Origin: an uncultured Bacilli bacterium
GTDB lineage: Bacteria > Bacillota_I > Bacilli_A > RFN20 > CAG-826
DNA: 38,749 nt
Reading direction: 5' to 3'
Assembly (NCBI GenBank): GCA_944351395.1
Contig: CALVPP010000006.1
Span: forward strand, 1 to 38,749
Shown here: positions 1,881 through 26,189 of the stretch, one piece after another
How positions within the stretch are numbered: position 1 is the first letter of the stretch
How the letters are laid out: the number at the start of each line of letters is the position of its first letter
Position numbers and translations under genes: made by a program
Notes under the pieces: model-generated
What the model saw: the letters and a program-made list of their open reading frames with translations, nothing else
Told to the model about the DNA's origin: nothing
Database searches by the model: none

Positions 1881-1964
1881 TGCGACTCATCCTTGGTCTA
1901 GCGATTAATATCCTCTAAAGCTAAACTAGGGTTGAGCTAAGAAAAAAGAAATGGAGGAAAAAAG
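1881..1964 (+). promoter_or_regulatory. Candidate S15-binding autoregulatory leader of rpsO
   Basis: The leader can fold into two stacked stems: CTCATCCTT (1886-1894) with AGGGTTGAG (1928-1936), one mismatch, and inside it GTCTAGC (1896-1902) with GCTAAAC (1920-1926), one mismatch. The apical loop holds TCCTCT (1911-1916), complementary over 6 bp, with one G-U pair, to the Shine-Dalgarno GGAGGA (1953-1958). That would make a pseudoknot that hides the ribosome site. S15 is known to repress its own mRNA through unrelated structures in different phyla. The fold here was built by eye. Confidence 0.55.
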
Positions 1965-4728: not shown

Positions 4729-6612
4729 ATGAAAAAGAAACAACGATTGAACTTTTTAGGACTTTTGTTAATTTCTTTAGTTACGAGTTGTGCTACGCCT
4801 AGCGTTCCTCCTAAACTTACTAGTTTTTCTTTAAATCCTGAGGAAGTAACAGTGGAGGTAGGCGACAAAATCGTCTACACTCCTAATTTCTATCCTCTTG
4901 GTGCAGAAGCTGATAAAGTACATTATCTCGTTGCTTCTGGTAGCGAACATCTCATCGAACAAGATGAAGCGAATTTAAATACATTTACCGCGATTGGGAC
5001 TGGCGAAGCACAAGTTAGTGCATACATCGATAAGAGTGAGGATCATCCGCAACTTTTCGCTCTTGCTGATATTCATATCTTAGCTGCTGGTTCTATCGTC
5101 GATGTGACAAAAATTGAAATAAGAACTGATAAAAGTGAACTTAAGGTTGGCGAGACTACTAAAGTTGAAGCGCTTATCTTTCCAAGCAATGCGACGATTA
5201 AAGATATCGCTTGGACATCATCTAACCCTAATGTCGCTAGCGTAGATGATAATGGTACTATTACCGCCATTAGTTTAGGTACTACAGATGTTTATGCTAG
5301 TGCTAAGGATGGAAGCGGTGTTATTTCTAACAAGTTACGCATCGAGGTGAAAGATGAAAATATTGGTGGTGATGAGGATGGCTTAATTACTTCCATCGTC
5401 ATAAGTGGTCCGACTAGTTTACCTATCGGTTCATTTGCTACTTATAACGCTACTGTTACACCAGCAAATAAAGCTCATGAAATCACTTGGTCTACGTCTA
5501 ACGATTTAATCGCAAGCATCGATTCTAGTGGCAATCTCGTCGCTATTAAAGAGGGTGTAGTCGAAGTAAAAGCAGTTGCGAGTGATGGTAGCGGTATCAC
5601 ATCTAATATCATCACTCTCACTATTTCAAAACAGGCTGCAATTCTTATCCAAGAAATAAATATTTCTTGTTTATATTCAAATGTCAATGTCGGTGGTAAA
5701 GCTACTATTAACGCTGCATTAGTTCCTTCTAACGCTACTAACAAGAATCTTAATTGGTCCTCGTCTAATACAAATGTAGCTACCATCGATAGCGAAGGAG
5801 TCTTAACAGCATTAAATGAAGGTTCTACTAACGTTCAAGCTTTCGCTAAAGATGGTAGTGGTGTTTCTTCTAACATCATCACTATTAACGTCGTTACAAG
5901 TGGTGGTGGCGGTACGTATGAAGGATATTACGCGAGCATTAATGAAAGTATGAACGGCACGACTTTACTTAACGCTTTACGCTCCTTAAATAGCCAAAAG
6001 CGAAGAAGCACTGTCGGCTATGGAAACATGTTAGTTAGTGGTGGCAGCAGCAAGAGTAGTGCTTTCTATAAAACGGATTATGACCCTAATCATCCAAATC
6101 AGATCATGACATTCTACTCTGGTAAATTTAGAAACTCAGGCTTAAATAGAGAACATGTTTGGCCTAGTTCACGTGGCGGGGATTACGTCGATAATGATAT
6201 CCATATGCCACGTCCTACCATCACATCTGAAAATGGAAATAGAGGTAATTCTTTCTACGTCGAAGGTAAAAATTCTAGTTCAGGCGGCTGGGATCCTGCG
6301 ATGACTGATTTCGGTTTAGAAAGTTATCGTGGTGATTCGGCACGCATCATCTTCTATTGTGTCGTCGCAAGTTCTAGGTTATCGCTTGTAGATAAAACAA
6401 ACGATAGTACGGGCAATAATACGATGGGCAAATTGAGCGATTTAATTAGATGGCATTTAAGTTACCCAGTGCAGGATAGAGAATTAAGAAGAAATGATGG
6501 AGCGGAAGATTTACAAGGTAACCGCAATCCATTTATCGACCATCCTGAACTCGTCTGTAAGATTTGGGGTAATACGAATTCATCGACACAAAGTTTATGT
6601 GGTTTACGTTAA
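4729..6612 (+). CDS. Secreted lipoprotein endonuclease I with N-terminal Ig-like (BIG2) repeats
   Basis: A lipoprotein signal (lipobox LVTSC, Cys21) would anchor this 627-residue protein outside the cell membrane. Four Ig-like modules follow (about 31-117, 126-208, 222-302, 307-394). The last three share the BIG2 pattern of W-(S/T)-(S/T)-S-N, then VASVD or similar, then a DGSG turn. The C-terminal domain (about 398-627) is endonuclease I-like, with the catalytic NREHVWPSS (His476), GDSARI and the metal-binding-type GNRNPFIDHPE. It probably degrades external DNA or RNA. AGGAGG lies 11 bases before the ATG, and the gene starts 27 bases after pnp and ends 15 before rnjB, so it appears to be in their operon. 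It is an addition to the Bacillus order. A second endonuclease I is at 20344. Confidence 0.9.
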   Translation: MKKKQRLNFLGLLLISLVTSCATPSVPPKLTSFSLNPEEVTVEVGDKIVYTPNFYPLGAEADKVHYLVASGSEHLIEQDEANLNTFTAIGTGEAQVSAYIDKSEDHPQLFALADIHILAAGSIVDVTKIEIRTDKSELKVGETTKVEALIFPSNATIKDIAWTSSNPNVASVDDNGTITAISLGTTDVYASAKDGSGVISNKLRIEVKDENIGGDEDGLITSIVISGPTSLPIGSFATYNATVTPANKAHEITWSTSNDLIASIDSSGNLVAIKEGVVEVKAVASDGSGITSNIITLTISKQAAILIQEINISCLYSNVNVGGKATINAALVPSNATNKNLNWSSSNTNVATIDSEGVLTALNEGSTNVQAFAKDGSGVSSNIITINVVTSGGGGTYEGYYASINESMNGTTLLNALRSLNSQKRRSTVGYGNMLVSGGSSKSSAFYKTDYDPNHPNQIMTFYSGKFRNSGLNREHVWPSSRGGDYVDNDIHMPRPTITSENGNRGNSFYVEGKNSSSGGWDPAMTDFGLESYRGDSARIIFYCVVASSRLSLVDKTNDSTGNNTMGKLSDLIRWHLSYPVQDRELRRNDGAEDLQGNRNPFIDHPELVCKIWGNTNSSTQSLCGLR

Positions 6613-23579: not shown

Positions 23580-26189
23580 ATGAAAAAGATGACAGGTCAT
23601 GAAATTAGAAAGATGTGGATCGAATTTTTTGAGACGAAAGGACATCATTTCCAAGAAGGTGTCAGTTTGATACCAAAGAATGATCCAACATTGCTTTGGA
23701 TAAATTCTGGCGTCGCTGGTTTAAAACATTATTTCGATGGAACGATGATTCCTAAATATCGTCGAATTGTCAACGTCCAAAAATGTTTAAGGACTAACGA
23801 TATGGAAGAAGTTGGTTTAACTGCTAGACATCAAACCTTTTTCGAGATGCTTGGCTGTTTTTCAATTGGTGATTATTTTAGAAAAGAAATCGTCTCTTGG
23901 GCTTATGAAATTTTGACGAGTCCTCGTTGGTTTGCGTTTGAAAAAGATAAACTTTATTTTACTTATCATCCGAGTGATTTAGAAACGAAAGAATTATGGA
24001 TGAAAGAGGGTGTAGAAGAAAGTCATCTCATCCCTTTAGAGTCAAATTATTGGCAAATTGGTGAAGGTCCTTGTGGTCCAAATACTGAGGTCTTTTATGA
24101 TCGTGGTTTAGAATACGATAAAAAAAGGCGAGGAGTCGAATTATTAAAAGACGATGTCGAAAATGATCGTTATATTGAAATATGGGGTATCGTCTTCTCT
24201 CAATTTAACGCAGTTAATGGCGTCGATAGAAAAGATTATAAAGAATTACCTGCTAAAAATATTGATACAGGGGCAGGGCTAGAAAGAATTGCATGTGTCA
24301 TGCAAGGAGTGGAAACAAACTTTGACACTGATCTTTTCATGCCTTTAATTCGTGCGACCGAAAAAATTGCTAAGATTCCATATAAAGATAAACCGATGCC
24401 ATATCGTGTCATCGCTGATCATGTCCGTGCTTGTACTTTTGCTCTTAGCGATGGCGAATCGTTCTCAAACGAAGGCAGAGGTTACGTTTTAAGAAGATTA
24501 CTTAGACGTGCGATGGTTTATGCTAGACACATCGGGATTGAAAAGCCATTCCTTCATCAATTAGTGCCTGCTGTCGTCTTAATTATGCACGATTTTTATC
24601 CTTACTTAGATGATAAGGCAGAAATGGTACAAAAAATGATGAAAGCAGAGGAAGAAAAGTTCTTAAGAACTTTAGCAAATGGCGAACACATGCTGAAGAA
24701 GATGGTCGTCACTGGTACGAAATTGAGTGGTCAAGATGCCTTTAAACTCTACGATACATTCGGTTTCCCGCTGGAATTAACTCGTGAGCTTTGTGATTAC
24801 ATGGGTGTTGAAGTTGATGAATTAGGTTTCCAAAGCGAGATGGAAAGACAAAAAGAAAGAGCCAGAAGCGCAAGAAAAGTAAGCGAAAGCATGTCCAAAC
24901 AATCTGCCGATCTCATGAATTTTAAAGAATCTTCTTCGTTCGATTATGAACATATGACTCTAGAAGGCAAAATTATTGGTCTATTCAAAGATGGTGTCAA
25001 AGTCGACATGATTGACGAAGAAGGGGATGTAATCCTAGATAAAACATGTTTCTACGCTGAAAGTGGTGGTCAAGTTTCTGATGTCGGAGAAATGAATAAT
25101 GATCATACATCTGTACACGTTACCTATGTTTATCACGCGCCAAATGGACAAAATTTACATCACGTACAAGTTCAATATGGTGAATTAGTAGTCGGTGATA
25201 AATTAGAACTTAAAATTGACAAGAAGAAAAGAATGCTTACGATGCGTAATCATTCGGCGACGCATTTACTCCAACAAGCTTTAACACAAGTATTAGGTGA
25301 TCACATTAGGCAGGAAGGATCTTTCGTCAACGACGAATATTTGCGTTTTGACTTCTCTCATCCTAATAAAATTGAAGCCTCAGATTTAAAAGAAATTGAA
25401 CGTCTCGTGAACGATTGGATTAGTGACGCTATCGAAGAAAAAACGTATATTTTGCCATTAGAAGAAGCGAAGAAGATTGGTGCGAGAGCGTTCTTCGACG
25501 AAAAATATGGTGATTTAGTAAGAGTTGTCACATTTGGTGATGTTTCTAAAGAATTCTGTGGTGGGACACACGTTTTAAACAGCGAAGATATCGGGTTATT
25601 TAAAATCGTGAGTGAAGAAAGTATCTCAAGTGGTGTTAGAAGAATTGAAGCTGTCACCTCCCTAGGAGCGTTAAATTTCATCGATAAAGAAGAAAATATT
25701 ATCTATCGCGCAAGGAAAGATTTGAACGCTAAGTCATCATTTGAAGTAAACGATCGTTTAAAAGCTACATTAATCAATTTAGAAAATGTTAAAGAACATA
25801 ACGAATATCTAGAGACCGAAATCGCTAAAGTTATGGCGGAAGTTTTAAAAGAAGAAAAAGTAGTTTTTGAAGGATATAATCTTTTGCTTAGGTATCTACC
25901 TAAAGTTAAGCGAAATGGATTATTACCACTTTACGACGAACTTAAAAAAGATGATGATGAACATTTCATCATCCTCATCGGTCACGAAGGAGATAGTTAT
26001 CCTTTCTTAGTAGGTCTAGGTGATAAAGTGATTAAAGACGGGATTGAATCTCGCCAAATCGTCGATATATTGAAACAAAAACTAATTGGTTCAGGCGGCG
26101 GCAAACCGAAAATGGCGATGGGTTCTTTTAAAAACATTGACCGTCTTGACGAAGCGTTTGAATTAGTGAAGAAAGGCATTCATAACTAG
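23580..26189 (+). CDS. alaS: Alanine-tRNA ligase
   Basis: AlaS charges tRNA-Ala. The 869-residue protein has the class II catalytic core (about 1-235; FFEMLGCFSIGDYF, GEGPCGPNTE) and the tRNA-recognition helices. The editing domain has HSATH near 558 and CGGTH near 660, both zinc or editing motifs intact. A C-terminal DHHA1-type region ends in SGGGKPKMAMGS. AGGAG lies before the ATG at 23580. It is controlled by the alanine T-box upstream. It leads the unit alaS-ruvX-DUF1292 (gap of one base, then a 17-base overlap), the same order as in Bacillus. Confidence 0.98.
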   Translation: MKKMTGHEIRKMWIEFFETKGHHFQEGVSLIPKNDPTLLWINSGVAGLKHYFDGTMIPKYRRIVNVQKCLRTNDMEEVGLTARHQTFFEMLGCFSIGDYFRKEIVSWAYEILTSPRWFAFEKDKLYFTYHPSDLETKELWMKEGVEESHLIPLESNYWQIGEGPCGPNTEVFYDRGLEYDKKRRGVELLKDDVENDRYIEIWGIVFSQFNAVNGVDRKDYKELPAKNIDTGAGLERIACVMQGVETNFDTDLFMPLIRATEKIAKIPYKDKPMPYRVIADHVRACTFALSDGESFSNEGRGYVLRRLLRRAMVYARHIGIEKPFLHQLVPAVVLIMHDFYPYLDDKAEMVQKMMKAEEEKFLRTLANGEHMLKKMVVTGTKLSGQDAFKLYDTFGFPLELTRELCDYMGVEVDELGFQSEMERQKERARSARKVSESMSKQSADLMNFKESSSFDYEHMTLEGKIIGLFKDGVKVDMIDEEGDVILDKTCFYAESGGQVSDVGEMNNDHTSVHVTYVYHAPNGQNLHHVQVQYGELVVGDKLELKIDKKKRMLTMRNHSATHLLQQALTQVLGDHIRQEGSFVNDEYLRFDFSHPNKIEASDLKEIERLVNDWISDAIEEKTYILPLEEAKKIGARAFFDEKYGDLVRVVTFGDVSKEFCGGTHVLNSEDIGLFKIVSEESISSGVRRIEAVTSLGALNFIDKEENIIYRARKDLNAKSSFEVNDRLKATLINLENVKEHNEYLETEIAKVMAEVLKEEKVVFEGYNLLLRYLPKVKRNGLLPLYDELKKDDDEHFIILIGHEGDSYPFLVGLGDKVIKDGIESRQIVDILKQKLIGSGGGKPKMAMGSFKNIDRLDEAFELVKKGIHN

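Follow-up and report, generated by a model that had tools for sequence, protein, structure and literature searches.

Leaders of the gene for ribosomal protein S15 are a textbook example of how one regulatory problem has been solved by unrelated RNAs, and the rpsO leader of an uncultured Bacilli bacterium raises the question of whether it is a further such solution or a variant of a known one. The window, which is the whole stretch of 38,749 nucleotides that was analysed, belongs to a genome of 1.05 Mb and carries truB, ribF, rpsO and pnp in that order. From the letters of the DNA, the original prediction had read positions 1881-1964 as a candidate new S15 autoregulatory pseudoknot, and its coordinates are correct. 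We consider it probable that this leader serves as an S15-responsive operator of Firmicutes type (Geobacillus kaustophilus/stearothermophilus), in which a switch between an apical loop and the Shine-Dalgarno (SD) sequence would repress S15 translation. The features on which this reading is built are as follows.

1847-1852, + strand: putative -35 box TTGATT of the rpsO promoter (10 of 12 matches together with the -10 box, spacer 16)
1869-1874, + strand: putative -10 box TATAAT, which sets the transcript start at about 1881
1883-1903, + strand: 5′ arm of the hairpin, pairing with 1919-1941 (covariation; match of covariance model R1 at 1881-1943)
1892-1896, + strand: CUUGG, the 5′ side of the conserved GU/GC core (covariation analysis; motif invariant in Bacillaceae)
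1904-1918, + strand: apical loop, 15 nt in the window and 9-10 nt in most relatives
1911-1917, + strand: UCCUCUA, 5′ pseudoknot strand (supported by the SD-swap permutation and by compensatory changes)
1919-1941, + strand: 3′ hairpin arm, in which A1939-A1940, just ahead of G1941, form a conserved bulge (covariation)
1942-1951, + strand: 10-nt linker joining the hairpin and the 3′ pseudoknot strand (81 of 83 relatives have 9 nt or more)
1952-1958, + strand: 3′ strand of the pseudoknot helix, including the SD sequence GGAGGA (1953-1958)
1965-2234, + strand: rpsO, ribosomal protein S15 (89 aa; PF00312, E 2.0e-33)
2250-2276, + strand: intrinsic terminator downstream of rpsO

The position of the -10 box, together with its spacing in relatives, where it ends 7 nt ahead of the G of a conserved GCGAC in 47 of 85 leaders, places the probable start of the rpsO mRNA at about 1881, so that the structured element would make up essentially the entire 5′UTR. 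A promoter at equal distance is enriched across the leaders of the GTDB order (score of at least 9 in 68%, versus 17% of shuffles). Read from the promoter sequence, transcription would thus begin at the hairpin, and rpsO appears to be monocistronic. Elsewhere in the window, one protein encoded at 4729-6612 on the + strand joins three Big_2 (bacterial Ig-like) repeats to an endonuclease I domain and is possibly a surface or extracellular nuclease.

Folding prediction returns the stem at 1886-1936 as it had been drawn (-18.4 kcal/mol, loop left open). The paired region stands, but the description of it as two stacked stems does not: the leader holds a single continuous, interrupted hairpin of about 20 bp, which extends from 1883 to 1941 and closes with C1883-G1941 beyond a 2-nt AA bulge. 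Above this closing pair, the lower stem consists of G1884-U1938, C1886-G1936, U1887-A1935, C1888-G1934 and A1889-U1933, with an A1885·C1937 mismatch, and is followed by a U·U mismatch directly below C1891-G1931. The core then pairs C1892-G1930, U1893-G1929, U1894-A1928, G1895-U1927 and G1896-C1926. In the upper stem, U1897-A1925 and a C·A mismatch precede U1899-A1923, A1900-U1922, G1901-C1921 and C1902-G1920; the window has G1903 and A1919 where the consensus of the order has the last G-C pair of the apex. The minimum free energy of the hairpin is no lower than that of shuffled sequences (z -0.51), and the case for the element therefore rests on comparison. The same value favors the view that this is a functionless chance stem whose pyrimidine-rich loop happens to fit a common SD sequence.

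That view, to which we assign almost no weight, is refuted by covariation of both the hairpin and the loop:SD pairing in 85 leaders. These are the non-redundant members of a set drawn from 110 genomes of the order, aligned without reference to structure and scanned across all column pairs (G-test/APC). The top 13 column pairs all fall in one hairpin, 12 on the antidiagonal from 1884-1938 to 1903-1919, plus C1883-G1941. In a well-aligned subset of 37 leaders (alignment A3), two-sided changes occur at 17 of the 21 hairpin pairs, 82.8% of cells are paired versus 67.6% in shuffles and 26-37% with slid partners, and the covariation score is 0.400 versus 0.149 in shuffles. The C-G and G-C pairs of the core are nearly invariant in this subset and the U-G/G-U wobble is kept; for example, pair 1893-1929 is U-G in 23, G-U in 8 and U-A in 4 of the 37. 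Against a chance stem there is also the match of R1 to the window (E 1.6e-10), described below.

The third helix had been proposed between loop TCCTCT (1911-1916) and the SD sequence GGAGGA (1953-1958). The complementarity is as claimed, with one G-U among the pairs, and A1917-U1952 lengthens the helix to seven pairs. By itself this match would be unconvincing, because the SD sequence is a common one. Across the 85 leaders, the duplex between each loop and its own SD averages -7.82 kcal/mol, versus -6.73 kcal/mol when SDs are swapped among leaders (z -8.6, 0 of 20,000), in a permutation that does not preserve relatedness. Among 34 divergent representatives (at most 65% identical) the corresponding values are -8.06 and -6.51 kcal/mol (z -6.9, 0 of 20,000). 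Register-shifted or compensated variants recur across several genera (L011/L013, L022/L027, L029/L050/L096, L052, L068, L074/L083, L077 and L107). Examples, given as loop/SD, are CCCC/GGGG in L011 and L013, UUCCC/GGGGA in L029, AUUUACCC/GGGUAAAU in L027, UUAAUCC/GGAUUAA in L074 and L083, GUUUCC/GGAAAC in L077 and AGCGUUUC/GAAACGC in L107. Loop and SD thus co-vary as a third helix, and a linker of at least 9 nt should be long enough to span a 20-bp helix. Covariation among the rpsO leaders of relatives, which the original prediction had named as its check, is found in all helices by the structure-blind scan and the SD-swap permutation, confirming that the observation is more than chance.

We propose that the rpsO mRNA begins with a hairpin of about 60 nt that acts as the S15-responsive operator. 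When in excess over free 16S rRNA, S15 would bind this hairpin, probably through contacts with the GU/GC core (1892-1896/1926-1930) and with the helix base and its bulge. Bound S15 would stabilize pairing of loop 1911-1917 with 1952-1958, hiding the ribosome-binding site and repressing S15 translation. S15 binding, its favoring of the pseudoknot and the resulting repression are all expected here from the form of the leader, and S15 is very likely the ligand, given a single copy at rpsO and the presence of the GU/GC motif. The window S15 retains the RNA-recognition positions G22, Q27, H41, D48, S51, R64, Y68 and R71 named for the Geobacillus protein in PMC4684408, and has S at position T21 of that set; these residues are weak support for leader binding, since 16S rRNA binding needs them too. 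One possible alternative is a structured attenuator that answers temperature, ribosomal protein S1 or general translation through loop:SD pairing alone and without S15. The evidence at hand is all structural and SD sequestration by itself lowers translation, as this explanation would have it, but simple sequestration needs none of the strongly conserved elements of the helix (the invariant C-G, the U-G wobble, the G-C, the AA bulge and C1883-G1941), and the element occurs at rpsO alone. We regard an S15-independent attenuator as very improbable.

Is the fold new? A Firmicutes family of S15 leaders is already recognized in PMC4137082. Autoregulation was proven experimentally for the G. kaustophilus rpsO mRNA, where PMC4684408 describes a GU/GC motif plus a junction; the leader mimics the three-way junction of 16S rRNA, and G. 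kaustophilus S15 (Gk-S15) requires this mimicry. In Geobacillus, S15 is thus established to bind a leader of this kind and to repress its translation, and a 2024 review (PMC10931766) describes repression that competes directly with ribosome binding. For comparison we used 80 Bacillaceae-type rpsO loci, 3 from Geobacillus and 77 others; the Geobacillus loci were chosen by genome name, because protein searches for this genus at class and phylum level gave nothing closer than 70% identity. The 80 leaders have arms of 19-20 nt, a CGA-N9-ACG apex and a CUUGG/CU[AC]GG core that is invariant in 30 Bacillaceae leaders. Their loop UCACC (or ACUCC) is complementary to SD GGUGA (or GGAG), with UCACC:GGUGA in Geobacillus.

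The likeness to the window is extensive. Both elements lie in the rpsO 5′UTR, overlap the ribosome-binding site and form an interrupted hairpin of about 19 bp; the window core CUUGG/CUAGG is the very one that Bacillaceae commonly have, and its GU/GC motif is formed by the first two and last two core pairs (C1892-G1930, U1893-G1929, G1895-U1927 and G1896-C1926). The C-U-N-x-G core is equally far from the apex in the window's order and in Bacillaceae, and the CGA-N9-ACG apex with its SD-complementary loop is common to the order consensus and Bacillaceae. The differences lie in the stem base, GCGACU...YUAAG with the AA bulge in the window's order versus ACC...GG-GGU with a bulged base in Bacillaceae, and in the loop, mostly CUCC/CCUC in the order versus UCACC in Geobacillus and enlarged to 15 nt in the window. 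The Geobacillus operator is also described, in PMC4684408, as a three-way junction. Model searches between the two groups give weak scores. R1 matches 70 and a class-wide covariance model, R3, 59 of the 80 Bacillaceae-type loci, which are related to one another, and the individual matches are weak (E 0.012-10 for R1, best E 0.0069 for R3). All matches of R1 and R3 lie at the rpsO leader on the right strand, with none elsewhere in 181 kb. In the reverse direction, the Bacillaceae model R2 finds leaders of the window's order weakly; searched on the window, it did not find the leader and gave a single off-target match at 23831 (E 0.42). Within Bacillaceae, the loop:SD permutation is not significant (z -1.6) and is uninformative, since loop and SD vary little there; a structure-blind scan of these leaders gave no clear third helix.

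These weak reciprocal scores and the different lower stem are what would be expected if S15 operators had evolved independently in the class and in Bacillaceae and had converged on a hairpin and loop:SD design through their contacts with S15. Such convergence has precedent, as at least four unrelated S15 operators from other phyla are described in PMC4137082 and S15 aptamers arise readily in selection (PMC5100602). It would have to account for arms that match in length, a core motif in the same register and a common CGA-N9-ACG apex, and for apparent lower-stem intermediates in other families of the class, such as CGCGCC...UCGAUUCCUCAACG...GGUAAG in L115 and GGUACCUUAUUCUUGG...CUAGGAUUGAGGAA in L123. 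We therefore consider convergence unlikely, if less so than an S15-independent attenuator. Since hairpin length, core, apex and loop:SD pairing are shared, Geobacillus included, the claim of a new fold does not hold, and the window leader is most plausibly a divergent form of the S15 leader already known from Firmicutes. Given the weak cross-model E-values and the miss by R2, 'diverged variant' is the fitting term, rather than formally proven family member. More tentatively, the Bacillaceae operator and that of the whole class could be one ancient H-type pseudoknot family, in which a 9-nt loop on a hairpin of about 20 bp captures the SD; the published Geobacillus three-way-junction model might then omit or mis-assign the loop:SD helix.

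An Rfam scan of the window at gathering thresholds returned nothing. We rejected this silence as evidence of novelty, because the Firmicutes rpsO leader, despite its demonstrated regulation, is not modelled in Rfam release 15 and the Geobacillus locus (L152:850-1100) is likewise unmatched. The E. coli S15 leader (RF00114), which has in common autogenous S15 control by a pseudoknot at the start of rpsO and the GU/GC motif, was rejected as an identity: it scores 31.1 bits, under its gathering score of 39.5, of which 17.8 bits come from conserved coding sequence alone, and the match begins within the apical loop (1913), leaving out the 5′ arm of the hairpin. The actinobacterial/mycobacterial rpsO element is also a 5′UTR pseudoknot, required there for S15 repression according to PMC4137082 and PMC8470358; it is set apart by the description in the former of a kissing-loop type, with the pseudoknot closed ahead of the regulatory sequences. 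No alphaproteobacterial, actinobacterial, Thermus, chlamydial, flavobacterial or archaeal S15 leader family was matched in the Rfam scan of the window.

R1, from whose training set the window's genus was left out, matches the window at 1881-1943 with 48.3 bits. Within the order, 130 of 245 genomes have an R1 match at E<=0.01, a lower bound, as GCAGCUU...GCCAAG variants can be seen by eye in unmatched divergent genera (g4 and g9, for example). At E<=1 R1 matches 107 of 296 genomes of the class, other families included. Matches nearly always sit immediately upstream of rpsO: those class matches below about E 0.05 that were compared by hand with S15 positions all lie directly 5′ of it, and some weaker ones do not. 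A leader type known experimentally only from Geobacillus can thus be traced through a class of reduced-genome bacteria on explicit covariation, pseudoknot helix included, and with Rfam lacking a model for the type, our leader alignments could seed a family. Additionally, the natural compensatory loop/SD variants are ready-made tests of S15 mRNA shut-off.

The hairpin is so nearly palindromic that the covariance model picks up the opposite strand as well (window 1886-1936, minus strand, E 0.28). Antisense matches likewise occur in L051, L058, L061, L083, L096 and L105, and alignment A4 was discarded because it held such matches. Automated scans will report spurious antisense copies of this hairpin, contaminating alignments. 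Families f11 and f22 (0.6-1.6 Mb, mostly single contigs) yield almost no R1 matches (a single listed one, at E 0.29), which suggests that the class's most reduced lineages have lost this S15 leader control or replaced it. In families f16 and f21, six loci (L118, L119, L121, L132, L137 and L150) unmatched by R1 carry another rpsO leader form, GACGCNAACAAGG...GCCG[AC]CC...CUUUAGU..GCGA, which is possibly a further S15 operator type.
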